In this document: positions 25,381 to 52,028 of the stretch, piece after piece | How positions within the stretch are numbered: the stretch's first letter is position 1 | How the letters are laid out: each line of letters starts with the position of its first letter | IMG/VR virus record: IMGVR_UViG_3300042430_001163 | Location: 1 to 64,000 of that record | Direction: 5' to 3' (one strand) | DNA length: 64,000 nt | Source of the DNA: a virus | Notes under the pieces: generated by a model | The model's input: only the letters and a program-made list of their open reading frames with translations | The model's database searches: none | What the model was told of the DNA's origin: nothing | Translations under genes and position numbers: made by a program

Positions 25381-27747
25381 TTAAATTAAATTAGCCCAAG
25401 CACCGTTTTCATAACCCTGAAATTTGTTAAGATCAGTATCATATAATATGTCACCATTGACGGCAGTTATTGCAGTTTTTTGTATTGTGGTTAATTTTGG
25501 TAGTCTGAATACAGCACCACCAGTAACATTAACTACCGTTGTTCCCTGAAGAGTAATACTAGTAGTAGATACAAATGTTGGTGTTCCAACAGTGTTACTA
25601 ACAATATTACCACTAATATTAACATTACCAGCACTAATATTACCAGTTACATTTAGACTACTTAATGTACCAACTGATGTAATATTAGGTTGAGCATTTG
25701 TAGTTAATGTTCCAGTAAAGAAATTCGCAGTTGCTAAATTTCCAAGACTGGCATTTCCACTGTTGACGTTTCCAACGGCAGTCAACGTTGTTCCACGAAT
25801 ATTACCACTATTAGCATATACATTACCAGCAATTACATCGTTAGTTACTGACAATGATGATAAAGTTCCGACTGATGTAATATTAGGTTGAGCATTTGTG
25901 GTAATAGTACCAGTCAATAATGATGCACCAATTGTACCACTATTAGCATATACATTACCTGCAGTTATATTGTTAGTTACTGATACACTAGATAATGTAC
26001 CAACTGATGTAATATTAGGTTGAGCATTTGTGGTAATAGTACCAATCAATAATGATGCACCAATTGTACCACTATTAGCATATACATTACCAGCAGTTAC
26101 ATCGTTAGTTACCGACAATGATGATAAAGTTCCAACTGATGTGATATTAGGTTGTGATGCAGTTGTTAGTACACCAGAATAATAATTTGCAGTTACTAAA
26201 TTACCTAAACTTGCATTTGATCCATTTACATTTCCGTTTGATTGAATTGTATTTGCAATTACTACATTTGGGACAAGTAAATTACCAGTACTTCCAAAAG
26301 TAAATGTATTAATAGTATTTGAAGTTGAAACAGTTTTAATACGATAAGCGACAGGAATATAAGCCCCACTAGATTGAGGTAATGCAATTACTTGCATCTC
26401 TGTTGACCCAGCAAAACTCCATCCTGAAATAGAATTAATAGTCAATAGTCCATTTCCTGTATATCCTTGATAAGAAACTTTGAAAATGTCATCATCAATC
26501 TCAACTTTATAAACATTCCCGTTATCTGTTCCTCTAGCTCTTGACATAGCCATAGTATACTGTGTGGCTATATTACTATATATATGTTGACTAATTTCTC
26601 CAGGAATTGTTAAGATGCCATCATCGTCTAATCTCAAATTATATTTAAGACCATCATTATCAGTAGAATATATGTTAACTACTGATGGAATATATGAAGA
26701 TCCACTAGAAGCAGATCCATTAGCAATAATATTAATTCCACCGCCAGATTGATATTGGTTATATGAAGTATATCCTGAACTTTGAATATTCAATATTTTA
26801 TCGCTAGTTTGAACAGCGGTGGGTGATACATTAGAACCACGAGATTTTTTCATTGAGATGCCAAATAAATTGGCATCATTTGATGATGTACTAATTGTTA
26901 TTCCGGTATTACTATTAGGAGTAGTAACATTAAGACTACTCACTGATAAATTACTTGGTAAATCAACAGTTATATTTCCACTAGTTGTAATCGGGCTACC
27001 AGTAATTGTAAGAGTATTACTTAATACTCCAACTCTAGTTACTGTACCAGTCCCTCCACCTCCACTACCAGTCGCACTAATAGTAACGGCACCGTTTGAT
27101 TGATTTATAGATACTCCACTACCAGCAACAATACTAGTTACCCCAGTATTAGTTATAGCTATTGTTCCGCTTGTTGTAATTGGACTTCCGCTTACTGATA
27201 AACCTGTCCCACCAGTTACAGAAACACTAGTAACAGTTCCACTACCACTACCATTTGATGCGCTGGTTACTCGTCCATATTGATCCACTACTATATTAGC
27301 ACTAGAATATGACCCTGATACGGATGGACTAATATTGGGTAAATTAACACTAATATTTCCACTACTGATTATTGGACTATTAGTAACTGATAAAGTGCCA
27401 CTAGTAATACCAACACTATTTACTGAGCCACCACCACCATTTCCTGTACCAGTACTATTAATTAGTAATGCACCGTTACTACCTGGTGATCCGCCGAGTG
27501 TCGTAATTGTTACGTTTTGCCCAGCTATTAAACTAGTTACGCCAGTATTGGTAACAACAAATGTTGAAGAATTACTATTACTAATAGCAATCCCATTACC
27601 TGCCACCACTGATTGAACTTGTCCAGCAGTTGTGAATAATTCAGTGAAATTGTTCTGTATAATGTTAAACGCTGTATACAAACTATCTGAGTTTGCTGAG
27701 TCGTTTGGTTGACCAATATTGATTGTTTGTTGACCTGGGATTGTCAT
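25381..27747 (-). CDS. Tail fibre protein with internal repeats
   Basis: 788 residues, extremely rich in Ser/Thr/Asn/Gly/Val. The N-terminus (INIGQPNDSANSDSLYTAFN) matches fibre proteins of aquatic T4-like phages. The middle has VTSVSVTGGTGLSVSGSPI-type repeats, and a 44-residue repeat (TTNAQPNITSVGTLSS) is tandemly copied near 25800-26200. The C-terminus (LPKLTTIQKTAITAVNGDIL, then ENGAWANL) resembles trimerising fibre ends. Likely receptor contact. Expression may be late, from the GATAAATA box in its leader. Confidence 0.85.
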   Translation of the reverse strand: MTIPGQQTINIGQPNDSANSDSLYTAFNIIQNNFTELFTTAGQVQSVVAGNGIAISNSNSSTFVVTNTGVTSLIAGQNVTITTLGGSPGSNGALLINSTGTGNGGGGSVNSVGITSGTLSVTNSPIISSGNISVNLPNISPSVSGSYSSANIVVDQYGRVTSASNGSGSGTVTSVSVTGGTGLSVSGSPITTSGTIAITNTGVTSIVAGSGVSINQSNGAVTISATGSGGGGTGTVTRVGVLSNTLTITGSPITTSGNITVDLPSNLSVSSLNVTTPNSNTGITISTSSNDANLFGISMKKSRGSNVSPTAVQTSDKILNIQSSGYTSYNQYQSGGGINIIANGSASSGSSYIPSVVNIYSTDNDGLKYNLRLDDDGILTIPGEISQHIYSNIATQYTMAMSRARGTDNGNVYKVEIDDDIFKVSYQGYTGNGLLTINSISGWSFAGSTEMQVIALPQSSGAYIPVAYRIKTVSTSNTINTFTFGSTGNLLVPNVVIANTIQSNGNVNGSNASLGNLVTANYYSGVLTTASQPNITSVGTLSSLSVTNDVTAGNVYANSGTIGASLLIGTITTNAQPNITSVGTLSSVSVTNNITAGNVYANSGTIGASLLTGTITTNAQPNITSVGTLSSLSVTNDVIAGNVYANSGNIRGTTLTAVGNVNSGNASLGNLATANFFTGTLTTNAQPNITSVGTLSSLNVTGNISAGNVNISGNIVSNTVGTPTFVSTTSITLQGTTVVNVTGGAVFRLPKLTTIQKTAITAVNGDILYDTDLNKFQGYENGAWANLI
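25805..26200 (-). repeat. 132-bp tandem repeats inside the tail fibre gene
   Basis: CCACTATTAGCATATACATT recurs at 25805, 25937 and 26069, exactly 132 bp (44 codons) apart, with a more diverged copy on each side. The reading frame is kept, so copy number can change by recombination without breaking the gene. Confidence 0.85.
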
Positions 27748-33524: not shown

Positions 33525-34196
33525 TCAATCTCTTTTGATACCAAATAATTGTAACAAATTTAAGAATAAATTGATGAAATCTAGATAAAGAGTCAAGGCT
33601 CCAACTACTTCTACATTACCTTCATCACTTACGCTTAATTGTTCACGAATTTTCTGTGTATCATAAGCAGTTAATCCCAAAAAGATTATAATGGCAATTG
33701 CAGAAATAACCATAGTCATTACTGTACTTCCAATAAAGATATTGACAATACTAGCAATAACAATCGCAATCAATCCAATAAACATAAATTGACCCATGGT
33801 TTCAAGACTTCGTTTGGTAAAATAACCATAAAAACTCATAGTACCAAACAAAATAGCAGCACCCATAAACGCTGATGTAATACTACCAACAGTATAAATT
33901 ACAAAGATTGTGGCAAAACTCAATCCCATTAAGGCAGCAAAACCATGTAACATCAATGTGGCAGCTACTTTTCCAACTTTATCAATAGTAAATGAAACTA
34001 ATAATACAGCAACCAATGGTGCAAAAATTACAACCCATTTAAGTGGCGTTCCAAAAAGAGTTGCCATTAATTGAGTATTGGTACTAACAAAATAACCAAC
34101 AATCATTGAGTTTAATACAGCCAAACACATATGATTGTAAACACGAATCATACTATCATTCAATTCACTAACACTACGGTAAGATAACATAGTCAT
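33525..34196 (-). CDS. Bax inhibitor-1/YccA-like membrane protein
   Basis: 223 residues, about seven transmembrane segments. The C-terminal block GLTAYDTQKIRE followed by GALTLYLDFINLFLNLLQLFG is the signature of the UPF0005/BI-1 family. In E. coli the relative YccA restrains the membrane protease FtsH. In a phage with many protease genes, a role in guarding phage membrane proteins from FtsH, or in membrane ion leakage, is an inference. Two ALKW-family genes and dCMP deaminase lie upstream in the same direction. Confidence 0.9.
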   Translation of the reverse strand: MTMLSYRSVSELNDSMIRVYNHMCLAVLNSMIVGYFVSTNTQLMATLFGTPLKWVVIFAPLVAVLLVSFTIDKVGKVAATLMLHGFAALMGLSFATIFVIYTVGSITSAFMGAAILFGTMSFYGYFTKRSLETMGQFMFIGLIAIVIASIVNIFIGSTVMTMVISAIAIIIFLGLTAYDTQKIREQLSVSDEGNVEVVGALTLYLDFINLFLNLLQLFGIKRD

Positions 34197-39705: not shown

Positions 39706-39734
39706 ATTATACTCTATTATAGAGTTATTGTCAA
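39706..39734 (-). promoter_or_regulatory. Sigma70-like promoter
   Basis: Minus strand TTGACA at 39734-39729, 17-nt spacer (CTCTATAATAGAG palindromic), TATAAT at 39711-39706. It starts inside the last codons of the final array gene. Confidence 0.8.
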
Positions 39735-39737
39735 GCA

Positions 39738-39947
39738 TTATAACCACCGCAAAGCGAATATTGTGGCAATGGCCGAATCTTTAAACAAGAAATATTGATC
39801 TTGATTTTGGGCATGCATACTATACGGCCGAATAAATTCCCAATCTGTACCCGCGTGTTCAAAACACCACCCAAAGATATCATCAAGTTTTTGCAGATTA
39901 TGCCCTCTATATCCTATACTCAACGTACTGACATCAATCTTAGTCAT
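39738..39947 (-). CDS. ALKW-family protein, array copy 13
   Basis: 69 residues from the ATG at 39947 (TAATG with the upstream stop). FGWCFEHAGTDWEFI and the ending TIFALRWL. Last gene of the array in transcription order. Unknown function. Confidence 0.75.
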   Translation of the reverse strand: MTKIDVSTLSIGYRGHNLQKLDDIFGWCFEHAGTDWEFIRPYSMHAQNQDQYFLFKDSAIATIFALRWL

Positions 39948-40201
39948 TATGTCCACTTTAATAAAAAGAATGTTAAATCTGCGGGATTTCTAAAATAATA
40001 CTTACTATGACCATCTATACTAACACACCATCTACTATCTGGAATACTTCTACGTTGGCCAATACCAAATTTTTTTGTACACCAACGATATATGTCTGCA
40101 GTCTCAAGATGATCAATATATTCTAAATGATTTCTTACTCTACGAGCAGTCATCCAAACTGTACCATTACTATGATAATCTTCTCTAACAATAAATTTCA
40201 T
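39947..40201 (-). CDS. ALKW-family protein, array copy 12
   Basis: 84 residues from the ATGA overlap; an ATG two codons earlier gives a Met-Val-Met start and 10-nt overlap. YRWCTKKFGIGQRRS and the ending FFLLKWT. Unknown function. Confidence 0.75.
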   Translation of the reverse strand: MKFIVREDYHSNGTVWMTARRVRNHLEYIDHLETADIYRWCTKKFGIGQRRSIPDSRWCVSIDGHSKYYFRNPADLTFFLLKWT

Positions 40202-40473
40202 GACCATTTCAATATAAATGCCATAACTATTTTTGGATCATAAATTTTTAATGAAAACCCAACCATATCAACAGAATTGATAATACACCATCTATTTAAT
40301 TCATCAAAATTATTATTCCAATATGCTACATCAGTTAAAATTATTGAAGTATAATTGACATCTTCTTCCAAATATTCTTCTGGTACCAAATAGAATTTAT
40401 GTCCTTTCATTTCTGCCAATACATCATAATGATCTTTTAACCAATATTTATGTTGTGAGTCATCCGAATTCAT
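40198..40473 (-). CDS. ALKW-family protein, array copy 11
   Basis: 91 residues, ATGA overlap with the upstream gene. NRWCIINSVDMVGFSLK and the ending MAFILKWS; the N-terminal extension is longer than usual. Unknown function. Confidence 0.75.
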   Translation of the reverse strand: MNSDDSQHKYWLKDHYDVLAEMKGHKFYLVPEEYLEEDVNYTSIILTDVAYWNNNFDELNRWCIINSVDMVGFSLKIYDPKIVMAFILKWS

Positions 40474-40676
40474 ATTATCCACTTTAATGTAAATCTCAAA
40501 GCATCTTTGCTATGAGTAAATTTAAATACTTCATTATCTCCATCAAGATACCATCTTCCACTAATCCATCTATTTCTGGAATCTATAATACATGGTCCAA
40601 AATTGTTAATACACCAATCTTCCATGGCAAATATAATATACATTGGTGTATCATCTGATATTGGAATTTTTGTCAT
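40470..40676 (-). CDS. ALKW-family protein, array copy 10
   Basis: 68 residues. MEDWCINNFGPCIID and the ending RFTLKWII. ATGA overlap. Unknown function. Confidence 0.75.
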   Translation of the reverse strand: MTKIPISDDTPMYIIFAMEDWCINNFGPCIIDSRNRWISGRWYLDGDNEVFKFTHSKDALRFTLKWII

Positions 40677-40927
40677 AACCATTGCAATGCAAATATTAAA
40701 GCTTCTCGTTCACAGAGAAAACTAAAACGATATTCTCCAGTATGTTTATCATTAACATAAACTCCAGAAACTTTAACTGATCTTACTTTTCTCTCGTGAT
40801 AAAGCCAGTTAAATGCCTGATGATATGTACGATGATTTGGAACAGTAATATCTATCCACTTACTTACTCGACAATGAGGAGTATGATAACAAATATCTTC
40901 CCATGTTATTGAGATTGCTTCGCTCAT
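40673..40927 (-). CDS. ALKW-family protein, array copy 9
   Basis: 84 residues. The central motif is changed to FNWLYHERKVRSVKV (no Cys); ending LIFALQWL. ATGA overlap. Unknown function. Confidence 0.75.
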   Translation of the reverse strand: MSEAISITWEDICYHTPHCRVSKWIDITVPNHRTYHQAFNWLYHERKVRSVKVSGVYVNDKHTGEYRFSFLCEREALIFALQWL

Positions 40928-41169
40928 GACCATCTCAATAAAAATAAAAGTGCTGATTTCTCATCTGGTATACTCACAGTAACATGTAAGATCGTTCCGA
41001 CACTATTAGTGCTAGTTCCATGTCCTCGCCATATATAGTTAATATTGTGTTCTTTCAACCAGTCACATACCTGATTCATAAAGAAGTCTGCATTATCATA
41101 CTTACTACCATCTCTGTATACGGTACGATCTGTATCAGGTCTCTGTAACTCACCAACATAATAAGTCAT
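40924..41169 (-). CDS. ALKW-family protein, array copy 8
   Basis: 81 residues. VCDWLKEHNINYIWRGHG in the motif position, ending LLFLLRWS. Starts 1 nt after the upstream stop. Unknown function. Confidence 0.75.
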   Translation of the reverse strand: MTYYVGELQRPDTDRTVYRDGSKYDNADFFMNQVCDWLKEHNINYIWRGHGTSTNSVGTILHVTVSIPDEKSALLFLLRWS

Positions 41170-41170
41170 A

Positions 41171-41383
41171 CTATGCCCACTTTAACATAAAAAGTAATTG
41201 TGTTTCTTCATCTACATGTTCTGTTAACTCAATGATATAAGTATTCATATAAGTATTACAACGAATACACCAACCAATACCATTGATATTACTACCAGAA
41301 TTTGGTAATCTCTCACCTACTTTTTCAATGAGCCAATTTAAAACTTTTGCAGTGTCTTCAACATTTGATTTTTCTATTTTCAT
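41171..41383 (-). CDS. ALKW-family protein, array copy 7
   Basis: 70 residues. LNWLIEKVGERLPNSG and GIGWCIRCNTY, ending LLFMLKWA. ATGA overlap. Unknown function. Confidence 0.75.
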   Translation of the reverse strand: MKIEKSNVEDTAKVLNWLIEKVGERLPNSGSNINGIGWCIRCNTYMNTYIIELTEHVDEETQLLFMLKWA

Positions 41384-41643
41384 GACCATCTCAATGTAAA
41401 TAATAATGCATCTTGTTCATAATCAAATGAGAATTCATATACAGGTGATTTCCACATATCTTCTTCTTTACGCCATAAACATTGCCACGTTCCATCACGT
41501 CCAAATTTCTGTGGACGATCAACAATACTAAATCTCGTACCAAATTTATCATGACACCATGTACACATTCTTTCAATTTGAACGTTGGATTTGCCGTGTA
41601 TTATAACATTATGAGTTAATCGTTCTTTTTTGTCAACTATCAT
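41380..41643 (-). CDS. ALKW-family protein, array copy 6
   Basis: 87 residues. CTWCHDKFGTRFSIVD is close to the family consensus; WQCLWRKEED strand; ending LLFTLRWS. ATGA overlap. Unknown function. Confidence 0.8.
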   Translation of the reverse strand: MIVDKKERLTHNVIIHGKSNVQIERMCTWCHDKFGTRFSIVDRPQKFGRDGTWQCLWRKEEDMWKSPVYEFSFDYEQDALLFTLRWS

Positions 41644-41882
41644 GACCATTTTAGTGCAAACATTAATGCATGTTTTGCATCTTTAAAAGCCCAACGATCA
41701 TATAATGATCTTCTTGAACTTGCCAATATGGGACTATGCAATGCTATAAAATCTTCTTCCCAATTTAATTTTTGACTTTTACAAAGCCAACGCCATTTTT
41801 CCCATTGATCTGATTCAGTTTCAGATATACATTGTACTACATATGGGTACTCTGCCATGACATCTGTAGTATATGGAAACAT
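41640..41882 (-). CDS. ALKW-family protein, array copy 5
   Basis: 80 residues. WRWLCKSQKLNWEEDF in the motif position, RWAFKDAKHALMFALKWS at the end, the best match to the consensus tail. TAATG junction with the upstream gene. Unknown function. Confidence 0.8.
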   Translation of the reverse strand: MFPYTTDVMAEYPYVVQCISETESDQWEKWRWLCKSQKLNWEEDFIALHSPILASSRRSLYDRWAFKDAKHALMFALKWS

Positions 41883-42100
41883 TATAGATACTTAAGAGCA
41901 AACCAACTGGAAATAGATTCTTGATAAAATGTAAATACAACTGATTTTGGAATTTTTATTCCCTCATTATCATAACCATGATCACTGTGAATATAAGTAA
42001 AGTCAAAATCTTTATGACTAACTAATCCACGTTTTTTTAAATCATGAACCATATCAAAAATCTCATTTATATCTTTATCAAATAATTTAATTTCTATCAT
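41882..42100 (-). CDS. ALKW-family protein, array copy 4 (divergent)
   Basis: 72 residues. No Trp-Cys motif; MVHDLKKRGLVSHKDFDF instead, ending SSWFALKYL. ATGA overlap. It keeps size and position but is the most diverged copy in the array. Confidence 0.65.
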   Translation of the reverse strand: MIEIKLFDKDINEIFDMVHDLKKRGLVSHKDFDFTYIHSDHGYDNEGIKIPKSVVFTFYQESISSWFALKYL

Positions 42101-42315
42101 GACCATTTCAACACAAATAATGTAGCATACTCTTCACGAGCAAAGTACCACCAGAAACCAAAATTGTATCCCACATACATACACATCCACGGTCTACTAT
42201 CATCTACTGTATCTCTGAACTCAGCCTGTGGTCCAAACTTTTTTGTGCACCACTTCATTCGTTTATTAAGTTCCTCAAGTGGCATATCTTCAGTTTTTAT
42301 TTCCGCTGCAATCAT
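42097..42315 (-). CDS. ALKW-family protein, array copy 3
   Basis: 72 residues. MKWCTKKFGPQAEFRD is near consensus; PWMCMYVGYNFGFWWYF strand region; ending TLFVLKWS. ATGA overlap. Unknown function. Confidence 0.8.
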   Translation of the reverse strand: MIAAEIKTEDMPLEELNKRMKWCTKKFGPQAEFRDTVDDSRPWMCMYVGYNFGFWWYFAREEYATLFVLKWS

Positions 42316-42722
42316 GACCACTTCAATGCCATTACTGTAAATAACTCATTACTAATAACATATCTCCATCCAGCATATACATCATCAACAGGCTTCCAAA
42401 GTGAAATGTCTTGTTCCTCAATCCATAAGTTAACTGCATAGGATACCTCTACTACACAATAATCATTAGGAACATGAACATCTTCATCGTAATCATCAGT
42501 TGAAAGAAGTTTAAAGTTTTTAGGATTTTCGTATCTTGTACGCATTGTAAATATCTGACCTGTTGGTGCTGTCATAGGCTGTACATCTACAATTTGACTG
42601 GCAATCATACTAGACAAGGATTTTCGTAATATAGGCAAAATAATCGCGACAAAACTTCCATACTTCTTTGTCATCTTTCGTAATGATAGCCGCCTAGATA
42701 GTCTTCGTTGATGACTATTCAT
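42312..42722 (-). CDS. ALKW-family protein fused to a capsid-protein-like segment, array copy 2
   Basis: 136 residues. The C-terminal half is family-like (VNLWIEEQDISLWK, WRYVISNEL, MALKWS). The N-terminal part (RRLSRRLSLRKMTKKYGSF, then IASQIVDVQPMTAPTGQIF and MRTRYE) resembles the VQPM-x-x-PTG-x-IF-x-x-R segment of T4-like major capsid protein gp23. It looks like a chimera of a capsid fragment and a family domain. Alternative: an independent small phage family with a similar motif. Confidence 0.65.
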   Translation of the reverse strand: MNSHQRRLSRRLSLRKMTKKYGSFVAIILPILRKSLSSMIASQIVDVQPMTAPTGQIFTMRTRYENPKNFKLLSTDDYDEDVHVPNDYCVVEVSYAVNLWIEEQDISLWKPVDDVYAGWRYVISNELFTVMALKWS

Positions 42723-42976
42723 GACCAACGCATTGAAAACAACAATGCTGCCTGTTCTGTTTCAAACCAGATTTTTGTACCAGTCCAAACATAATGTGGA
42801 TCATCAACTAACTCTCTACACCATTTATGTATTTCAACATAATTCTGATTTAACTTCAAAGCATCAAATTCAACTGGATAATATTTTTGTTCTGCCAATA
42901 AACCATTCCAATCAATAGTCTTTGGCGTACTATCAAGTATAATACTATCTAAAAATTCTCTTATTGAAAGTTTCAT
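42719..42976 (-). CDS. ALKW-family protein, array copy 1
   Basis: 85 residues from the ATG at 42976 (ATGA overlap with the DUF3307 gene). IHKWCRELVDDPHYVWTG and the ending LLFSMRWS. First array gene in transcription order; no promoter between it and the upstream genes. Unknown function. Confidence 0.75.
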   Translation of the reverse strand: MKLSIREFLDSIILDSTPKTIDWNGLLAEQKYYPVEFDALKLNQNYVEIHKWCRELVDDPHYVWTGTKIWFETEQAALLFSMRWS

Positions 42977-43338
42977 AATGTCACCAAATAACAAATCATA
43001 CCAACATATGTTACTTGATGTAACAATTGATCTAAACCTAATAACCACCAAAATTCTTCATGTGTAGTTGGACCCCATGTCATTTTCTTATTAATATTCA
43101 TTTTGGCCCAATCAATATGATAATGAATAACTATATCAGCAAATGATAGTATAATAGCACTTGGAATATCTACTATTGCAATACATAAAAATGTTCCAAT
43201 ACCATGTAACAAAGCATGTAACAATCCACCAAGATGTCCATATGTTCCTTTATTAGACCATTGATATTTGGTCTGTAATGGAAAATCAATAACAAAGTGT
43301 TTTACTTGAAGTAATAACAACAATGTAATTAATATCAT
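42973..43338 (-). CDS. DUF3307 family membrane protein
   Basis: 121 residues, several hydrophobic segments. VKHFVIDFPLQTKYQW, NKGTYGHLGGLLHALLHG, IHYHIDWAKMN and WWLLGLDQLLHQVTYVGM are the conserved blocks of DUF3307. The many His residues in membrane segments hint at a metal site. Function unknown. ATGA overlaps on both sides. Confidence 0.85.
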   Translation of the reverse strand: MILITLLLLLQVKHFVIDFPLQTKYQWSNKGTYGHLGGLLHALLHGIGTFLCIAIVDIPSAIILSFADIVIHYHIDWAKMNINKKMTWGPTTHEEFWWLLGLDQLLHQVTYVGMICYLVTL

Positions 43339-44119: not shown

Positions 44120-44154
44120 AAAAAAATATCAGAATAGATATCTACTCTGATATT
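44120..44154 (-). terminator. Terminator overlapping the next promoter
   Basis: AATATCAGA / TCTGATATT 9-bp stem whose loop contains a further palindrome, followed on the minus strand by a T-run (44126-44120). The upstream arm overlaps the -10 box of the promoter at 44152-44180, so read-through RNA is terminated while RNA from the promoter lacks the arm. Confidence 0.7.
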
Positions 44155-44180
44155 ATAATTGATAATTGATTTGTCGTCAA
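44152..44180 (-). promoter_or_regulatory. Sigma70-like promoter
   Basis: Minus strand TTGACG at 44180-44175, 17-nt spacer, TATAAT at 44157-44152, sharing bases with the terminator hairpin. Confidence 0.75.
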
Positions 44181-44194
44181 TGACTTTTGGATAA

Positions 44195-44545
44195 CTACAG
44201 TGGAAATTTACCATCATCTACTAATGCTAAAATCAATTGATATTGTTCCCATGCTTTATTCAATGATCCATATAGATATCTCAATTCACGTTCTCGTGAT
44301 TCTTGACGATACAAAAAACTATCCATATGTGATATCAAACGTGCAAGATTCTCTTTTGGCATAACGATATCTATCATTTCTACATCTTCAATCTCATCAT
44401 ATCCTGGAAAAGAAGAAAGATTGCCATCTGTATTAATATTGTACTTGACTCTGCGATAACGTCTATTAGAAGTTACAACATTTGCCTCATATTCTTTCTT
44501 AAAATATTCAAGAGCTTCTTCATCATCAATCCATGTATAACTCAT
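44195..44545 (-). CDS. Hypothetical protein downstream of clpP
   Basis: 116 residues, acidic, helical C-terminus (SRERELRYLYGSLNKAWEQY). TAATG junction with clpP. Not recognised; co-transcribed with the Clp genes. Confidence 0.7.
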   Translation of the reverse strand: MSYTWIDDEEALEYFKKEYEANVVTSNRRYRRVKYNINTDGNLSSFPGYDEIEDVEMIDIVMPKENLARLISHMDSFLYRQESRERELRYLYGSLNKAWEQYQLILALVDDGKFPL

Positions 44546-45135
44546 TATACACCACGTTTTGTAATAATCTTATCTGCCAAACCATATGCAACAGCTTCAT
44601 CGGCACTCATAAAGAAATCACGTTCCATATCTTTTGATAATTCTTTGTATGTTTTTCCAACTGAATTATGATTAACATAGATTTGAGTTAATTCTCGTTT
44701 CATTTTAATAATTTCTTTAACTTGAATTTCCATATCAGTGGCTTGTCCACGTGCACCACCACTTGGTTGATGAATCATATGTCTGGCATATGGAAGAATC
44801 AAACGTTTACCTTGTGTACCAGCCTGTGCCAATAAACTACCCATACTACAAGCCTGACCCATTACAATAGTACTAACATCACAATTGATGAAATTCATTG
44901 TATCATAAATGCTCATACCGGCTGTTACACTACCGCCTGGACTATTGATATAAAAGTGAATATCTTTTTCTGATTCACTTTCTAGAAATAGTAATTGTGC
45001 CACGATCACACTGGCGCTTTGTTCGTTAACATCATCATGTAACATAATAATACGATCTTTAAGCAAACGACTGTAGATATCATAGCTACGTTCGCCTTTA
45101 CTTGTTTGTTCTACCACCATTGGGATTAAACTCAT
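44545..45135 (-). CDS. clpP: ATP-dependent Clp protease proteolytic subunit ClpP
   Basis: 196 residues. Serine peptidase that forms the barrel of ClpXP/ClpAP. Triad: Ser97 in [10 protein letters not shown], His122 in HMIHQPSGG, Asp173 in ERDFFMS, at positions nearly equal to E. coli Clp[19 protein letters not shown] is also canonical. ClpX and ClpS are encoded in the same cluster, so the phage can assemble a ClpXP of its own or feed host ATPases. 4-nt overlap with the coiled-coil gene upstream. Confidence 0.95.
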
Positions 45136-45566
45136 TTTACTGCTCCTTTTAGGATTTCAATTTCACGCTTTAACAAATATACTTCAGATTCTAAATCACG
45201 ATTTCGTTTGTATATTTTCTGATACATTTCTTTTTCTAGTTTTAAGTGTAACTCTGAGTTCGCCAATCGTTGTTGACATTCTTCATAGTTACGCTGCCAC
45301 TGACCCCAATATTCGCCGTTTCCTTCTACAATAGCTCTTAGATCACGATTGTCAATTTTAAATTGCGCCAACATTTTAGTCTTGTTGTAATAGGATGTCA
45401 CAATATTAAGTGATACTGAATCTTGAAACCGATCTATTTCTATATCACTGTGAGCATTTTCAGGATTGGAATATATGCGATTTATCTCTTCAACTTGACG
45501 CTTAATATCGTCAAGTTGACTAGTATCAGTTTTGAATACTTCTATAATTTTTTTGTTCCAGAACAT
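45132..45566 (-). CDS. Coiled-coil protein between two ClpP genes
   Basis: 144 residues with two coiled-coil stretches ([14 protein letters not shown] and [20 protein letters not shown] onwards). It lies between clpP and the clpP-like gene with tight spacing. Could be an adaptor or an unrelated structural protein; no evidence for either beyond position. Confidence 0.7.
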
Positions 45567-45568
45567 TG

Positions 45569-46180
45569 TTATCCTTTAGTTGTTCGTTTACGAGTACTAG
45601 ACGGTGGACTAACACCCTCTATAAAATCGCATAGATTGAGTTTTAATGCGGCATCATGATCAAGCCATACATCTTGAGCTGGCAACAATTGTGACATGAT
45701 TGTAGATTCATCTAGTCCAGTACATACTTTATAATGATCTAAAATACGTTTATTTGTCAATTCAAATTCTCGCATAATGGCAAATAATTCATGACTTTTA
45801 CCTTCACTACCGGCACTAAATTGATGACTAAGAATACTGGTATTTGGTGTTAAAAATCTACGACCTTTTACTCCAGAGATAAAAATCAATAAACCACAGC
45901 TGGCAATCAAACCAAGTCCCACGGTTTTAATTGGTATCTTACTAGATTTCATTGTATCAATCAATGCAAATGCGGCTGACAAATCACCACCTTCACTACA
46001 AACCATCAATAATAGTTCAGTCTTACGAATTTTACTAATATAGTTTTCATATAAAATCCATTCTATAATTGGTTTTACTGATTCTGATGTAACGTCATCC
46101 ATAAACACGTAGATACCAGATTCCTGTAGTGCCTCACTAGGTGATTTATCCTGATTGTCATTAGTGTCTTGTTTTGTCAT
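45569..46180 (-). CDS. Second ClpP-like protease
   Basis: 203 residues. Diverged ClpP: nucleophile Ser94 in LIASCGLLIF, His119 in ILSHQFSAG, Asp170 in AQDVWLD, so the triad is kept. SEGGDLSAAFALIDTM matches the oxyanion loop region (SPGG in canonical ClpP). It may form mixed rings with the canonical ClpP, as known for some bacteria with two ClpPs; that is inference. It has its own promoter. Confidence 0.85.
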   Translation of the reverse strand: MTKQDTNDNQDKSPSEALQESGIYVFMDDVTSESVKPIIEWILYENYISKIRKTELLLMVCSEGGDLSAAFALIDTMKSSKIPIKTVGLGLIASCGLLIFISGVKGRRFLTPNTSILSHQFSAGSEGKSHELFAIMREFELTNKRILDHYKVCTGLDESTIMSQLLPAQDVWLDHDAALKLNLCDFIEGVSPPSSTRKRTTKG

Positions 46181-46209
46181 TTAAAATCCTTGCTATTTGT
46201 CATATTACT

Positions 46210-46238
46210 AATATAACATAGAAAAAAAGTTCTGTCAA
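46210..46238 (-). promoter_or_regulatory. Sigma70-like promoter of the clpP cluster
   Basis: Minus strand TTGACA at 46238-46233, 17-nt spacer, TATATT at 46215-46210. AAGGA ribosome binding site before the ATG at 46180. Confidence 0.7.
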
Positions 46239-46248
46239 TTAAATTGGT

Positions 46249-46256
46249 CATAAATA
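46249..46256 (+). promoter_or_regulatory. Candidate late promoter CATAAATA
   Basis: CATAAATA about 19 nt upstream of the ATG at 46275 (with TTAGGAG ribosome binding site), on a strand opposite to the surrounding genes. Similar to the T4 late consensus; no sigma70 -35 is seen here. Confidence 0.35.
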
Positions 46257-46274
46257 TTATTTTAGGAGTTAAAC

Positions 46275-46649
46275 ATGGAATATATTTTAATTATTGGTGG
46301 TATTGTTTTGGCTTATTTTGTAACATATTACTTTTGGAAGAAATTATCAAAAGACACAGTTGAACCAGTAGCACCATATAAAGTTGAATCACCAGTTGAA
46401 CCAGTAGCACCATATAAAGTTGAATCACCAGTTGAAACCGTAGTTGTTCCCGTAGTAGAACCGATAGTAGAAGAAGTTAAATCTGTTGTGCCTGAATTAA
46501 AAGTGGTAACTGGATCTGGATCAAAAACTAAAAAGACTAAAACTCCAGTTAAATCTACAACTAAAACTTCAGTTAAATCTACAACTAAACCAGCACCAGT
46601 CAAAAAACCAGCCAAACCACGTATCAAAAAACCAACGGATAATGCATAA
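46275..46649 (+). CDS. Membrane-anchored Lys/Pro-rich protein with tandem repeats
   Basis: 124 residues: N-terminal transmembrane segment (ILIIGGIVLAYFVTYYFW), then a duplicated 12-residue unit (EPVAPYKVESPV twice, coded by a perfect 36-bp duplication), a Val-rich linker and a histone H1-like basic tail (Lys/Thr/Pro/Ala). Could tether nucleic acid to the membrane; inference only. First gene of a two-gene plus-strand island inside the Clp cluster. Confidence 0.7.
   Translation: MEYILIIGGIVLAYFVTYYFWKKLSKDTVEPVAPYKVESPVEPVAPYKVESPVETVVVPVVEPIVEEVKSVVPELKVVTGSGSKTKKTKTPVKSTTKTSVKSTTKPAPVKKPAKPRIKKPTDNA
46359..46430 (+). repeat. Perfect 36-bp tandem duplication
   Basis: 46359-46394 and 46395-46430 are identical, in frame (12 codons) within the membrane-anchored protein gene. 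Recent duplication by slippage or recombination. Confidence 0.9.
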
Positions 46650-47343
46650 TACATTTTCTGTTGATTTAATCAGTGATTTAAATTTAACTGATACCGATAT
46701 ATTTGAATGGACTGGAAAACAAACCAGTTTATTCTGTGTGGTGGCCGGCAATATAAGCAACAATCTGAAAATCTTAGAAAGAACATTGTCTCATCTTGGT
46801 GATAATTATCGCGGTGTATTATTCATAGATGGTAGTCTTGAACATGATAATCTTAAAGATTATTATACCAGAGTACAAGAAATTAAAGAAATTTGTAGTA
46901 AAATTAATAATGTAGTTTATCTACATAATCATGTAGTAGTACTAAACGGTATAGCTTTTGTTGGTTGTAATGGTTGGTATGGTAATAGAAAACAATCCAA
47001 TTGTATTGAAGAACTTGAATACTTAGAAAACTATAGATCAGAAGATATATCCTATGTTAGTATGAGTATCAGAAAACTTCAACATAGTGAAGATGTTAAA
47101 AAGATAGTTATTGTTAGTAATAGTATACCAAGTGATTATTTGACATTTAATAGTCCAAATGTAAAATTTCCAAAAGAATTAAATTTAAGTTTAAGTTTAC
47201 TATTTGATAATGAACATAAGATTGATAAATGGTTATTTGGAACTAATGATATGTCTATTGATGTAACATTATCAGATAGACAATATGTTAATAATCCTGT
47301 AATATCAGGATTATTATATCAACCAAAAAGAATTCCTCTTTAA
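46642..47343 (+). CDS. Degenerate metallophosphoesterase-like protein
   Basis: 233 residues. The order of segments resembles calcineurin-like phosphoesterases, but the metal ligands are changed: DLISDLNL instead of D-x-H, VVAGNISN instead of GD, LFIDGSLEH where GNHE is expected, and LFGTND where GHTH is expected. So it is probably not a metal phosphatase; a binding or regulatory protein is possible. It overlaps the upstream gene by 8 nt and the convergent clpS by 4 nt. The assignment itself is tentative. Confidence 0.55.
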   Translation: MHNTFSVDLISDLNLTDTDIFEWTGKQTSLFCVVAGNISNNLKILERTLSHLGDNYRGVLFIDGSLEHDNLKDYYTRVQEIKEICSKINNVVYLHNHVVVLNGIAFVGCNGWYGNRKQSNCIEELEYLENYRSEDISYVSMSIRKLQHSEDVKKIVIVSNSIPSDYLTFNSPNVKFPKELNLSLSLLFDNEHKIDKWLFGTNDMSIDVTLSDRQYVNNPVISGLLYQPKRIPL

Positions 47344-47642
47344 TCAGATTCAATTTTAATCTGTAGTGGATAACCCTGACTACGAGCGGCAATAGTTACT
47401 TCAATACCTTTTTGTTCAGCAATTTCATATGGTAGAACTGCTACAACTGCACTACCGGCACTATGAATATTCTCAGTCAAACTCAATGCTGAATCTTCAG
47501 TATAATCAAAATATTCCATTAATGATTCTACCACAAAATTCATAGTAGTAACTTCATCATTAATATAAAATACACGGTAGAATGATGGTTCTGAAAGTTT
47601 AATATTTGGTTTAATTTTAGTACCGATTTCAGTTTTAGCCAT
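47340..47642 (-). CDS. clpS: ClpS adaptor
   Basis: 100 residues. The ClpS core is recognisable: YRVFYINDEVTTMNFVVESL (the N-end-binding loop region NDxxTxMxFV) and the IHSAGSAVVAVLPYEIAEQK helix. ClpS brings N-degron substrates to ClpA in bacteria; the phage has ClpX but no ClpA in this window, so it may redirect host ClpA. The C-terminal residues overlap the convergent gene. Confidence 0.9.
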   Translation of the reverse strand: MAKTEIGTKIKPNIKLSEPSFYRVFYINDEVTTMNFVVESLMEYFDYTEDSALSLTENIHSAGSAVVAVLPYEIAEQKGIEVTIAARSQGYPLQIKIESD

Positions 47643-47668
47643 TTTTGTTTCCTTGAAAATTAAGAATG

Positions 47669-47694
47669 ATAGTGAGACAAAATCGCCTCACTAT
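47669..47694 (-). repeat. Hairpin in the hsp20-clpS gap
   Basis: ATAGTGAG / CTCACTAT 8-bp stem with a 10-nt loop and no T-run. Possible processing site or weak terminator after hsp20. Confidence 0.5.
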
Positions 47695-47715
47695 TCACTA
47701 CAAGTATTTATTATA

Positions 47716-48162
47716 TCACTTAAGATACTTAATGTCAATAGTTTTTGGTTTCATTTCTTCCGGTACTTGACGTTCCAAGTATATGGTTAAAATGCCATTA
47801 ACATTTGTGGCATCAATAATTTTAACATGTTCGGCTAATGTAAATTCACGATGAAAATCACGATTACTAATACCATGAAATAAGTATTCATCAGTATATA
47901 CTTCCTGATTTTCTTTACTACCATTGATTGTTAATACGCGATTATTGAGTTCAATCTTAACCTCACCTTCATTAAAACCAGCCGTAGCCACTTCAATACG
48001 AAACTTATCTTCAGTTTCTTTGACAATGTTATATGGGGGATAATTGGTTTGATTTGATTGAGTTGATACTCTGAGCATTTCATCCAACATTGAGTCAAAT
48101 CCAATACCGAATTTGTGTATAGATGGAATATCCAAACTTCTTAGACTTAAAGTACGTGTCAT
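47716..48162 (-). CDS. hsp20: Small heat shock protein (Hsp20/IbpA family)
   Basis: 148 residues. Alpha-crystallin domain about 40-135: YNIVKETEDKFRIEVATAGF, VLTINGSKEN, REFTLAEHV, and NGILTIYLERQVPEE (the I-x-V-like anchor is GILTIYL). Holds unfolding proteins; Hsp20 genes are frequent in T4-like aquatic phages. The leader may be an RNA thermometer (48170-48220). Confidence 0.92.
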   Translation of the reverse strand: MTRTLSLRSLDIPSIHKFGIGFDSMLDEMLRVSTQSNQTNYPPYNIVKETEDKFRIEVATAGFNEGEVKIELNNRVLTINGSKENQEVYTDEYLFHGISNRDFHREFTLAEHVKIIDATNVNGILTIYLERQVPEEMKPKTIDIKYLK

Positions 48163-48169
48163 TTGTTTT

Positions 48170-48186
48170 CTCCTTTGTTAAGCAAG
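48170..48186 (-). promoter_or_regulatory. Possible ROSE-like RNA thermometer hairpin over the hsp20 RBS
   Basis: In the RNA, CUUGCUU (48186-48180) pairs with AAGGAG (48175-48170) across an AACA loop, with the G of UUGCU bulged. ROSE thermometers of small heat shock genes use this UUGCU-over-Shine-Dalgarno arrangement. An upstream TAGA/TCTA hairpin precedes it. Structure deduced by eye. Confidence 0.55.
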
Positions 48187-48226
48187 ATGACTAATATAGA
48201 CCCCTAAGGCATCTACATTAATACTT

Positions 48227-48255
48227 ATTATACAAGATTACGTAAAATAGTACAA
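48227..48255 (-). promoter_or_regulatory. Sigma70-like promoter of hsp20
   Basis: Minus strand TTGTAC at 48255-48250, 17-nt spacer, TATAAT at 48232-48227, giving a leader of about 58 nt. Confidence 0.65.
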
Positions 48256-48269
48256 TATTATCGGATAAA

Positions 48270-48599
48270 TTAAACTGTAAAAGATTCACCGCAACCACAA
48301 CGTGCAGATTCTTTTGGATTGATAAAGTCAAAACCTTCATTCAATCCCTTCTTCACATAATCAATTTCAATACCATCAATGTATGTTAAATCTTTCTGTG
48401 TGACCCAAACTTTTGCGCCACTTCCGATATCGTACTCTACCCAATCCCATGTACAGGGAACTTGATCTACATATTCAAGTACATATGCAAGACCACTACA
48501 TCCAGTTGTCTTGACACCTACTTTGATGCCCTGTCCACTACCACGTTTGGCAATGTTACTAACTATTTTGGCTGCTGCACGTTCTGTCACTGTAATCAT
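48270..48599 (-). CDS. iscA: A-type Fe-S carrier, IscA-like
   Basis: 109 residues. Cys34 in TTGCSGLAYVLEYV and Cys101/Cys103 in ARCGCGESFTV, the IscA pattern with GESF ending, close to E. coli IscA spacing. ATGA overlap with the deformylase gene. With iscU, it gives the phage two steps of Fe-S assembly; no IscS or HscA/B seen. Confidence 0.93.
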   Translation of the reverse strand: MITVTERAAAKIVSNIAKRGSGQGIKVGVKTTGCSGLAYVLEYVDQVPCTWDWVEYDIGSGAKVWVTQKDLTYIDGIEIDYVKKGLNEGFDFINPKESARCGCGESFTV

Positions 48600-49090
48600 C
48601 TTTTTTTACCTTTTTTAACTGCCATGTTAAATTTTAAATCACTAACATATTCTTTAAACACTATACCATTTAAATGATCTAATTCGTGTAAGAAACATTT
48701 GGCATCCATATCTTCTAATGTTTCTGTATAATATACTCCATTGATATCTTGCCAACGAGCATCTACAGTTTTTGGTCTAGTAATGTCTAAAAATACATTA
48801 GGAAAACTTAAACAACCCTCTGAGTTCTTATATTGATCTTCACTAATACTAACTATTTCTGGGTTAAACATTAAAGTAGTACTCAATGATCTATTGATAT
48901 TAATGGCTATTACTCTATAAGATACACCAACTTGATTGGCTGCAATACCATGAGCTTGATAGTGATGTAATGTTTCAAGTAAATCAGTAGAAAGAAATCT
49001 ATTAAGTCCAGCAGGTGGATTATTAAAGTCCCATTCTTGACAACGAGTACGTAATACTTGTTCAGGCCATTTTTTAATGTCTAATATCAT
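48596..49090 (-). CDS. def: Peptide deformylase
   Basis: 164 residues. Removes the N-formyl group from new proteins. Motifs: HGIAANQVGVSYRV (motif 1, variant of GxGLAAxQ), EGCLSFP (motif 2) and FLHELDHLNG (HExDH, motif 3), so all metal ligands are present. Phage deformylases are known from cyanophages and others. The start overlaps the iscU C-terminal ORF by 17 nt. Confidence 0.95.
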   Translation of the reverse strand: MILDIKKWPEQVLRTRCQEWDFNNPPAGLNRFLSTDLLETLHHYQAHGIAANQVGVSYRVIAININRSLSTTLMFNPEIVSISEDQYKNSEGCLSFPNVFLDITRPKTVDARWQDINGVYYTETLEDMDAKCFLHELDHLNGIVFKEYVSDLKFNMAVKKGKKR

Positions 49091-49340
49091 GTTTGCTTCT
49101 GTAATCCGCTATAGCAGCTTTAATAGCATCTTCCGCTAAAATTGAACAGTGAATCTTGACCGGAGGTAATGCAAGTTCTTGAGCAATTTCGGTATTTCTA
49201 ATTGTTCCAGCCTCGTCAAGAGTTTTACCTTTGACCCATTCTGTAACCAATGATGAACTAGCAATCGCACTACCACATCCGTAAGTTTTGAATTTTGCAT
49301 CTGTAATAATACCGTCAATAACTTTTATTTGTAACTTCAT
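49074..49340 (-). pseudogene. iscU: IscU scaffold, C-terminal ORF of a split gene
   Basis: 88 residues from the ATG at 49340, covering IscU from just after the Cys-Gly-Asp motif: FKTYGCGSAIASSSLVTEWV (Cys22, IscU Cys63), LPPVKIHCSILAEDAIKAAI (Cys65, IscU Cys106; LPPVK is the HscA-binding motif). The sequence is otherwise well conserved. A Shine-Dalgarno CGGAG lies 5 nt upstream of this ATG and was created by the 7-nt insertion that separates it from the N-terminal ORF at 49351. Either a split two-chain IscU, a recoded gene, or a broken gene. Confidence 0.8.
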
Positions 49341-49354
49341 TACATCTCCGTTAA
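49341..49354 (-). other. 7-nt insertion splitting iscU
   Basis: Minus strand reads TGC GGT TAACGGA GAT GTA ATG. Without the 7 nt TAACGGA the frame would read Ala-Cys-Gly-Asp-Val-Met-Lys, the invariant IscU sequence. The insertion (within about 49347-49353) brings a TAA stop, shifts the frame and completes a Shine-Dalgarno sequence (CGGAG). Confidence 0.85.
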
Positions 49355-49470
49355 CCGCAAGCGGGAGCACCGACCATGCCGGTTCCCACTTGCGCTATTT
49401 CCTCCTTATCAAATGATCCTACATTTCTTGGATTTTCATAATGATCCAGTACAGCAGCCGAATATGCCAT
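49351..49470 (-). pseudogene. iscU: IscU scaffold, N-terminal ORF of a split gene
   Basis: 39 residues, MAYSAAVLDHYENPRNVGSF onward, ending GTGMVGAPACG then TAA. It carries the first cluster ligand (Cys38, IscU Cys37). The ATG at 49470 has GGAG in the end of the HNH gene (49472 stop) just upstream, so it is translated as part of that operon. Normal IscU is about 128 residues in one chain. Confidence 0.8.
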
Positions 49471-49471
49471 T

Positions 49472-50035
49472 TTAATCTCCTATAATACTAGTTACAACAT
49501 TGATGGGCTGATAACTATCCCATTTTTTACGATTATCTTCACCTAAAATATATCTCAAGTTTTTCATTCCACCAATAATACTAGGATCTATTTTCAAATC
49601 AAATCCTTGTTTGAATGGGATAATATGATCAAGTTGAAATTGATCTTTTCTTTTCCCAGTATTTTCCGGAATCAATCCTTCTTTTTTCATTTTATACCAT
49701 GATCTATAAGTTGCTTTCTTACATTCTCTTTTATATAATATGAATTCATCTTCAATCGGTTTTTTTGGTCTAGAATTATTTACCTTTCCATCTTTGTTTG
49801 GGTTATTAATGATCATTCTTTGTCTAGCAATTTCATTTGGTATACCCTTATTCCAACCCCAACCCAATTTAAATCCTTCTAAATTCATTTTTGACTTTTG
49901 TTCATCAGTCATTTTCAGACCTTTATTCCAAGCCGGCATTCCTGCATTAATAGCACCCTTACAATCAGACGAGCAATACTGTTTGAACCATGGACGAATT
50001 TCAAACTCTTTATTACATGTCAGACAAGTTGCCAT
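49472..50035 (-). CDS. HNH endonuclease with NUMOD3-like motifs (homing type)
   Basis: 187 residues. N-terminal Cys zinc-like finger (ATCLTCNKEFEI, YCSSDCKGA), then NUMOD3-like repeats (MPAWNKGLKMTDEQ, WGWNKGIPNEIA), and a C-terminal HNH fold (FQLDHIIPFKQGFDLKIDP, then NLRYILGEDNRKKWDSY). This is the build of free-standing phage homing endonucleases. It sits 1 nt upstream of the interrupted iscU, which suggests iscU was or is its target. Confidence 0.85.
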   Translation of the reverse strand: MATCLTCNKEFEIRPWFKQYCSSDCKGAINAGMPAWNKGLKMTDEQKSKMNLEGFKLGWGWNKGIPNEIARQRMIINNPNKDGKVNNSRPKKPIEDEFILYKRECKKATYRSWYKMKKEGLIPENTGKRKDQFQLDHIIPFKQGFDLKIDPSIIGGMKNLRYILGEDNRKKWDSYQPINVVTSIIGD

Positions 50036-50613
50036 TATTTTATCTCTTTAAGTTTATCTTTAATTATATTTATAGTAATTGGACTAAGAACCACTTCATA
50101 ATGATTAATGTCAACTTCAATTAAATTCATATCTGTTCTATATTTCATACTCTTAACTGTCACAACACCATCATTTTCACTGATAATCCATGGACTATTA
50201 CCACTAGTAGTGACAATGTTTGTCCATGGATGTTTAATATCAATCTTACGAGCACGTGACATTGGTTCACTTAATGGGCCAATATCTCTTAGTAATCTAT
50301 TAAATGGTAGAAAATATTTGGCAAAGTCAGCACTTTCTGCCCCACCGTAGGGTGTACTAATTGTACAAGCACCTAATACTTTATCACCAAGATATTCACT
50401 TAAATGTAAGGCATATATTCCACCAAGACTATGACAAACAAAAAAGATATCATTGAAATCTTTTAATTGATCTTTCATTGATTCTAAGTTATTATGAAAT
50501 CCATGATTACTGTCATATTCAATCATATATTCATCTTTATGTTTAAGATGTTCTCTAATATAATTGAAACTTTCACCTGTGGCACTGGCACCATGAATAT
50601 ATACTATTATCAT
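50035..50613 (-). CDS. Alpha/beta hydrolase (lipase-like)
   Basis: 192 residues from the ATG at 50613. IVYIHGASATGESFNYI (oxyanion region) and the nucleophile elbow FVCHSLGGIYALHL (G-x-S-x-G with Cys-His-Ser) are clear; the His near the C-terminus (DINHYEVV) could complete the triad. Substrate unknown (lipid, ester or peptidoglycan-linked). It lies between HNH/iscU and the bS21 gene. Confidence 0.8.
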   Translation of the reverse strand: MIIVYIHGASATGESFNYIREHLKHKDEYMIEYDSNHGFHNNLESMKDQLKDFNDIFFVCHSLGGIYALHLSEYLGDKVLGACTISTPYGGAESADFAKYFLPFNRLLRDIGPLSEPMSRARKIDIKHPWTNIVTTSGNSPWIISENDGVVTVKSMKYRTDMNLIEVDINHYEVVLSPITINIIKDKLKEIK

Positions 50614-50614
50614 T

Positions 50615-50824
50615 TTAGTACATTTTTTTAGGTAATTCTTGACTACGTAATTGTTTCTTCCAACGTGACTTAGCACGTGCTTTGGCTACTTTTCTTGTGA
50701 TAGTTGGTTTCTCATAACTTTGACGTTCACGTATTTCATCAAGTAAACCACTATCATTGATTTTCTTTTTAAATTTACGCATTGACGATTCAAACGATTG
50801 ACCATCTCTAATTATTACTTTCAT
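50615..50824 (-). CDS. rpsU: Ribosomal protein bS21
   Basis: 69 residues. The bS21 pattern is plain: [20 protein letters not shown], then RERQSYEKPTITRKVAKARA, and a basic KSRWKKQL tail, all at the expected spacing. bS21 sits near the anti-Shine-Dalgarno on the 30S subunit and is a known phage-encoded ribosomal protein; it may bias initiation to phage mRNAs. It overlaps the clpX end by 17 nt. Confidence 0.92.
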   Translation of the reverse strand: MKVIIRDGQSFESSMRKFKKKINDSGLLDEIRERQSYEKPTITRKVAKARAKSRWKKQLRSQELPKKMY

Positions 50825-52028
50825 TTGTATTCTCTATTAATATTCTTGGTTCATCTACTAAATCTCTAGTGATATTTATCGCCTTGATATTGTTCTTTAT
50901 ATAGGATTGAACATCATACATATGAGGCAATAATACTCGTTCTACTTCACTATGAAGTCCTCTTGCACCAGTTTTTAATTTAAGACAATTTTCTGCTATT
51001 TGATCAATAGATTCACATGTAAATGTTAAAGCAATGTCATCAAGACTTAATAAATATTCATATTGTTGAATATAATTATTCTTAACATTAGTCATGATTC
51101 TAATCAATTGTTCTTTATTTAATTCACTAATATTAACCAAACTAGTAAAACGTCCAGTAAATTCTGGTATCATTCCAAATTTAGTTAAATCATCCGGAAT
51201 AATCTTTTCTAAATAATCAATATCTTCTTTTAATTTTAGTTTAGATGAAAATCCAATACTATTACCATCCATTCGTTTTGATACTATTTCATTTAAACCA
51301 ACATAAGCACCACCAGCGATAAACAGTATATTTGTTGTATCAATTTCTATCATTTCTTGACCTGGATGTTTACGTTTGCCACTTTGAGATACACGACATA
51401 CAGTTCCTTCTACCAATTTAAGTAAAGCTTGTTGTACACCTTCACCCGATACATCGCGAGTAATACTGGCACTTTCTGAACGTCTGGCAATTTTATCAAT
51501 TTCATCAATGAAAATAATACCACGTTGAGCACGTTCAATATCACCATCCGCCGCAGCCAATAATCTACTAATCATACTTTCAACATCATCACCAACATAA
51601 CCAGCTTCAGTTAAACTAGTGGCATCTGCAATGATAAATGGAACATCTAGATATTTGGCTACAGTTTTGGCCAATAAAGTTTTACCACTACCAGTGGGAC
51701 CAACGATTAAGACATTACTTTTTTGAAGTACAATGTTTTCATCTTTGTTATTAATTCGTTTATAGTGATTACTAACAGCTACACTTAATATTTTCTTGGC
51801 ACGTTCTTGTCCAATAATATATTGATCCAGAAAATTTTTGATATCATCTGGATATAGTTTAGTTGGTTCATGATCTATCGATTGATCATCAGTTGATGAA
51901 TCATTTGTTAATAACTCCGTACAAAGTTCAATACAATCATTACAGATTGCTGAACTTTCGCCTACGATAAGTTTTTTAACTAAGTTTTTATGTTTTCCGC
52001 AAAAGGAACAGTGAAGAATGTTGCTCAT
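50808..52028 (-). CDS. clpX: ATP-dependent Clp protease ATP-binding subunit ClpX
   Basis: 406 residues. N-terminal C4 zinc finger (Cys7, Cys10, Cys29, Cys32), Walker A GPTGSGKT at about 110-117, pore loop GYVGDD at 143-148, Walker B IIFIDEID at 171-178, and the ClpP-docking IGF loop (NSIGFSSK). C-terminal small domain with [15 protein letters not shown]. Complete, so it should pair with the ClpP proteins of this cluster or with host ClpP. Phage genomes with a full ClpX are uncommon as far as I know. Confidence 0.95.

Follow-up and report, generated by a model that had tools for sequence, protein, structure and literature searches.

T4-like phages carry early clusters of small genes and anti-defence regions with variable host-takeover genes. 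Conserved phage proteins are increasingly recognised as triggers of bacterial immunity, foremost among them the capsid protein: it activates CapRel (PMC9712102) as well as TIR systems (PMC12926258); the Gol region, reported in the first quarter of the T4 major capsid protein gp23, binds EF-Tu and activates Lit (PMC3014915). Large phages can also harbor lineage-specific expansions of small proteins, such as the approximately 35 zinc-ribbon copies of phage G (PMC7824862). Here we describe an array of small genes in bases 1-64000 of the 71,497-base IMG/VR virus record IMGVR_UViG_3300042430_001163, a 64,000-nucleotide stretch referred to below as the window. The record belongs to a jumbo phage of the T4 superfamily and encodes a T4-type DNA polymerase, by which its nearest annotated phages are the jumbo phages Phosso (49.7% identity), XaC1, CBB, and Atu_ph07. 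The 13-gene tandem array that an earlier note, made from the sequence alone, had placed at 39738-42976 is borne out as 13 consecutive open reading frames (ORFs) encoding proteins of 70-138 amino acids, all on the minus strand (42976→39738), which that note had not given. With high confidence, we describe it as a cassette array in which a carrier domain can bear capsid-protein or P-loop segments, N-termini are exchanged, and whole cassettes are gained and lost.

The second gene of the array, 42312, begins with a piece of the major capsid protein. Residues 28-72 match Pfam Gp23 (PF07068, major capsid protein) at 41.9 bits against a cut-off of 24.4, align with T4 gp23 95-131 by blastp, and are 52% identical to jumbo-phage capsid proteins, a segment overlooked when the earlier note reported no known domain. 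Other regions of gp23 are found elsewhere, with an ortholog of 42312 accompanied in L004 (L and G numbers are our handles) by a second cassette carrying T4 253-310, and a family protein of Sinorhizobium phage Phosso beginning with a third region (T4 438-485). PF07068 matches occur in 42312 and in the arrays of three phages, covering profile positions 6-51 (A), 136-207 (B), and 305-354 (C); by our own assignment from the HK97 fold, A is the N-arm and first E-loop strand and B the second E-loop strand and spine helix. None spans a full-length HK97-fold Gp23 subunit (~370 positions), and the cassettes are not capsid proteins. Overall, segment A corresponds to T4 gp23 ~93-134, with 40-44% identity to the T4 protein and at most 64% to those of jumbo phages, and the core IxPxIRKVxPxxIAxxIxGVQPM, from the first quarter of gp23, is conserved in all A cassettes. 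Gol is taken to cover approximately residues 93-122.

Segments A and B come back in arrays that were fetched by junction DNA alone. Among records with at least three cassettes, A is present in at least 9 (including the window, and counting one Phosso ORF without the family tail), B in at least 16 (excluding weak B-like matches without the tail, such as Phosso L127:18729), and both in at least 6, a co-occurrence with a one-sided Fisher p=0.003 from which relatedness has not been removed. Aligned with hhalign against the capsid-protein alignment, A reached E=3.7e-19 and B E=1.4e-9, with E=1.6 the best value in a reversed-sequence control. With few exceptions, A and B segments have their closest counterparts among jumbo-clade capsid proteins, and in no case is the T4 protein the nearest. 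When 102 cassettes were scanned against 24,736 Pfam families, Gp23 was the sole family at E<=0.01 (7 members), and major head proteins were the only recurring families in PHROGs; PADLOC returned only scattered weak single matches to known defence or anti-defence proteins for the same cassettes. A 228-amino-acid ORF with segment A and no family tail is also found (Phosso, PV764938, 182280-182855; L156:22170-22856), and its annotated start in Phosso (182439) removes most of the gp23-like part.

Four cassettes start with a P-loop segment (GGFxxGQ...GRQTGKS) in place of a capsid segment, and this N-terminus carries the RecA/DnaB-type motif GGFxxGE...GxxxGKS. It is closest to the DnaB-type helicase of these phages (hhalign P 96.6, E 5e-10). 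PHROGs first pointed to terminase (E=0.0043), a source that was rejected given the poorer fit of TerL (hhalign P 54, E 1e-4). The C-termini of a P-loop cassette (L158) and a capsid A cassette (L186) are 58% identical (E=8e-31), the 42312-type C-terminal subtype likewise bears either a capsid or a P-loop segment, and A, B, and P-loop cassettes stand together in the G057 array. As the same C-terminal domain is joined to capsid or P-loop segments, the N-termini have been exchanged, and the proteins are modular, with a carrier domain and a swappable N-terminal segment. A further long cassette type, with the conserved N-terminus RIKA..R...LKK.G...YD.D..RA..V.DFYHGY, recurs in about 15 copies.

The carrier domain was assessed with a leave-one-out hidden Markov model (HMM) test in which profiles were built from window copies only and each copy was shuffled 200 times as a control. 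Of the 19 copies that the earlier note had counted, 16 scored 16-37 bits, compared to 7-12 bits for the best shuffles, and 41882, 42312, and 7970 were missed. The first of these was recovered with a wider family profile (relatives in L005 and L129) and the second by its predicted strand-helix-strand-helix in residues 90-137 together with clear relatives; 18 copies are thus supported, and 7970, at 3.7 bits and below its best shuffle, is not. AlphaFold2 predicts a compact beta-alpha-beta-beta-alpha domain for 42097 (24 aligned copies; predicted local distance difference test score, pLDDT, 94.1), with the conserved ...ALLFALKWS end as its last helix. The C-terminus of 42312 was modelled with the same order of elements (E90-95 H97-105 E122-126 H127-137; pLDDT 66-82), and confidence was low for the capsid segment alone. 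The shared protein plan that had been proposed is real, with a near-invariant Trp and final F-x-L-x-W with its helix, but the motif Trp-Cys-x2-K/H-F/Y-G is whole in a minority of copies only. Together, the leave-one-out test, the model, and the wider family support the claim that the family is old, diversified, and co-translated and that its members share one fold. The domain had no match in Pfam, PHROGs, NCBIfam, or PDB sequence searches, and Foldseek against PDB gave nothing significant, the weak likeness to RRM/KH-like alpha-beta folds included (best E 0.74); the leading BFVD structure matches were uncharacterised proteins of uncultured Caudovirales and Atu_ph07. Derivation of the carrier domain from gp23 was rejected, with hhalign of the family against capsid protein at P=0.2 and the 50 best Foldseek PDB matches including no capsid protein.

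At a typical junction the following gene begins inside the codons that end the domain (...LKWS-stop), and TGGTCATGA, the signature said to mark most junctions, is indeed present at 7 of the 12 internal ones. The same protein tail also occurs with TAA or TAG stops, with 4-nt overlaps in Phosso, where junctions are mostly different, and in isolated pairs with TAA stops. Because the tail helix persists at these other junctions and in isolated copies, the possibility raised in advance that the tail is a mere coupling artefact was rejected.

Gain, loss, and swapping involve entire cassettes and take place at the short junction. In G002, a close relative whose polymerase is 97% identical, the array lacks 42312, 42097, and 40673, contains one additional cassette, and ends in a different gene, and the junctions that remain fit together exactly; G023 and G028 differ by one cassette. 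Synonymous divergence (dS) between orthologous cassettes lies anywhere from 0.05 to 0.75, the spread that piecemeal exchange would give. Diversifying selection, put forward for testing in the earlier note, finds no support in the gene-wide ratio of nonsynonymous to synonymous divergence (dN/dS), which was 0.20-0.74 in 11 orthologous pairs from close relatives and never exceeded 1; the cassettes nonetheless evolve faster than ClpP/ClpX (dN/dS ~0.1). In one array, two similar and apparently duplicated cassettes are not adjacent (L131:11140-11388 and L131:10462-10722), which suggests array growth by duplication.

An alignment-based search for related loci was unsuccessful because the family is too diverse, single-protein tblastn against annotated phages gave no or merely marginal matches for most members tried, and no family member was found in T4, S-SSM5, HTVC008M, phiM19, CBB, or XaC1 at E<=0.1. 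Scanning IMG/VR with the junction DNA TTGAGRTGGTCATGA only returned at least 80 loci; 68 of the 80 listed held 439 family ORFs, and 101 of the 121 junction matches listed coincided with the 3' end of such an ORF. In total, at least 594 cassettes were counted in at least 81 records, with approximately 40 in Phosso and up to 21 in others among the records listed. Members in published jumbo-phage records are annotated as hypothetical proteins.

The array is preceded by a short operon head consisting of a 257-amino-acid gene and then a DUF3307 gene (operon 44108->39738), and its first gene probably starts at ATG 42976, with TTG at 43051 likewise open. Expression is probably early, because sigma-70-type promoters lie at the operon head and after the array and the window holds fewer copies of the T4 late-promoter octamer TATAAATA than chance would give. 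Late expression was rejected on the under-representation of this octamer. Many perfect TTGACA-16/17-TATAAT promoters occur throughout the window, several at gene starts.

What these cassettes do can be proposed only tentatively. We regard it as possible, at somewhat less than an even chance, that they are modular early cassettes for host takeover or counter-defence, and that the mimic-bearing ones are decoys or compete for host factors. The array would provide early, coupled production of many small binders, all of which share a C-terminal beta-alpha-beta-beta-alpha carrier domain with freedom to diverge. In some, an exchangeable N-terminal segment (one of three gp23 regions or a RecA/DnaB-type P-loop) is a copy taken from a conserved phage protein, and whole cassettes are exchanged at the junction where the domain end holds the next start. 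Mimic cassettes may then compete for host factors that recognise the capsid protein or phage ATPases, candidates being immune sensors or, in the Gol/Lit case, EF-Tu, while plain cassettes would bind other targets. A more specific form, which we find doubtful, is a viral decoy library in which recombining cassettes display the phage's own immune-visible proteins early, blinding sensors before the real proteins appear; the donors would be the capsid protein and a replication or packaging ATPase. The decoys or inhibitors anticipated in the earlier note gain support on the decoy side from the phage-protein pieces, chiefly capsid, in several cassettes. A number of points weigh against the decoy interpretation. 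Most cassettes have no recognisable mimic segment, and the P-loop segment means that the capsid is not the sole donor. A gp23-like fragment could itself trigger sensors, and, as gp23 is highly conserved and easily detected, the donor bias may be overstated. Event counts are inflated by the near-identity of the G033 and G060 arrays. To our knowledge, neither B (spine helix) nor C (C-terminal strand) is a sensor epitope.

The main rival is interference with capsid assembly, in which gp23 segments bind capsid protein and delay or poison assembly, whether the phage's own or that of a competing relative, as modulators or superinfection weapons. The copied gp23 regions all lie in subunit contacts, as far as the HK97 fold indicates, A and B co-occur and should pack together in the capsid subunit, and the donors are jumbo-clade capsid proteins. 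However, the segments resemble the phages' own capsid clade, so self-poisoning would be expected, the same carrier domains bear a P-loop ATPase segment, and the promoters point to early rather than late expression; we consider this explanation unlikely, and if it is true, phages would here be competing with one another in a new way. Alternatively, the cassettes could be diversified general inhibitors acting on host proteins, with an active carrier domain and captured segments as raw material for new binding surfaces, which would suit the early promoter, the quick cassette turnover, and the lack of a mimic segment in most cassettes. This is doubtful in turn, as the capsid signature IxGVQPMTxPxG is kept between distant A cassettes and the recurring segments are the same ones, not a random set.

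Tight translational coupling and a shared fold would also be expected if the proteins were subunits of a single hetero-oligomer or structural complex and had to be made in stoichiometric amounts by coupled translation, but the number of copies lies anywhere between 1 and about 40, their order is shuffled, and cassettes are gained or lost between close relatives, which makes this highly improbable. Scarcely better are the chances that the cassettes are by-products of recombination, selfish or near-neutral and spread via the short shared junction: junction similarity could promote homologous exchange and dS is heterogeneous, yet dN/dS of 0.20-0.74 reflects purifying selection, and the domain and capsid signatures are kept across very divergent phages. 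If the host-takeover and counter-defence reading is true, a widespread array joining capsid pieces to an exchangeable carrier would be a counter-strategy aimed directly at capsid sensing, and its mimic segments would form a catalogue indicating what hosts sense. Either way, a large unannotated protein family of jumbo phages is named, along with evolution by cassette exchange at a junction where the protein tail and translational coupling share bases.

Coordinates of the array cassettes, isolated copies, promoters, and long cassettes (window positions unless a record is named; HMM, found in the leave-one-out test)
Feature	Position	Strand	Remarks
Cassette 1, 85 aa	42719..42976	-	First gene of array, overlapping DUF3307 gene end; HMM, 16.6 bits
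Cassette 2, 138 aa	42312..42728	-	gp23 segment A (residues ~28-72) and family domain (~85-138)
Cassette 3, 74 aa	42097..42321	-	AlphaFold2-modelled domain; HMM, 32 bits
Cassette 4, 74 aa	41882..42106	-	Subtype without central Trp; wider-family match; related to L129:4267
Cassette 5, 80 aa	41640..41882	-	HMM
Cassette 6, 89 aa	41380..41649	-	HMM
Cassette 7, 72 aa	41171..41389	-	HMM
Cassette 8, 81 aa	40924..41169	-	HMM
Cassette 9, 86 aa	40673..40933	-	HMM; missing in close relative G002
Cassette 10, 70 aa	40470..40682	-	HMM
Cassette 11, 94 aa	40198..40482	-	HMM
Cassette 12, 86 aa	39947..40207	-	HMM
Cassette 13, 72 aa	39738..39956	-	Last gene of array; different cassette in its place in G002; HMM
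Isolated copy, 69 aa	34513..34722	-	Pairs with 34215; HMM
Isolated copy, 98 aa	34215..34511	-	Pairs with 34513; HMM
Isolated copy, 70 aa	17450..17662	+	Pairs with 17663; HMM
Isolated copy, 78 aa	17663..17899	+	Pairs with 17450; HMM
Isolated copy, 78 aa	7733..7969	+	Kept in relatives; HMM
Claimed copy, 85 aa	7970..8227	+	Membership unsupported; 3.7 bits, under best shuffle
Sigma-70-type promoter, TTGACG-17-TATAAT, near-consensus	44152..44180	-	Head of operon 44108->39738
Sigma-70-type promoter, TTGACA-17-TATAAT, perfect	39706..39734	-	Just past array, for next gene
Perfect promoters, examples	317, 8725, 14774, 15099, 28842, 47738, 56169, 58000, 58298, 58598
RIKA-type long cassettes	L297:6999-7439, L301:10157-10567, L303:2261-2722, L224:2725-3165, L192:4630-5070, L158:7983-8417, others

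Several other genes of the window deserve mention. Close upstream of the array, the window encodes two ClpP-like proteases, ClpX, Hsp20, and a peptide deformylase (44545-52028, minus strand), and L005 has a ClpS-looking ORF as well (5425-5775). A Bax1-I/BI-1 family membrane protein (6.5e-52; 33525-34196, minus strand) adjoins two family copies and is kept in G002. The window also carries a Gram-negative porin gene (63071-63976, minus strand, continuing in L002:1-219; Pfam Porin_4, 1.4e-27) whose signal sequence is Burkholderiales-like; the presence of this gene on a phage record suggests a betaproteobacterial host and possible surface alteration. For a 788-amino-acid protein (25381-27747, minus strand), no PHROG was assigned and tblastn against 50,697 phage records gave no match.

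Literature searches found no capsid-fragment decoys, no such arrays, no description of the family, and no recurrent capsid segments on a carrier domain in the papers covered. The likeness of the cassettes to T4 gp23 lies in segment A, whose core falls in the first quarter of gp23, where Gol has been reported, but in the cassettes this segment is short, is joined to an unrelated carrier domain in a predicted-early operon, and forms no capsid subunit. With capsid-sensing immunity (CapRel, Lit, and Thoeris-type TIR) they share the major capsid protein, the trigger there and mimicked here, and capsid mimics could plausibly interfere with such sensing, although those are host systems whereas the cassettes are phage-encoded. 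The phage G expansion is similar in that many paralogous small proteins occur in one large phage, but the zinc ribbon is a different fold and no captured phage-protein segments have been reported for it. The early clusters of T4-like phages, finally, consist mostly of unrelated genes, whereas the cassettes belong to one domain family with exchangeable N-termini.

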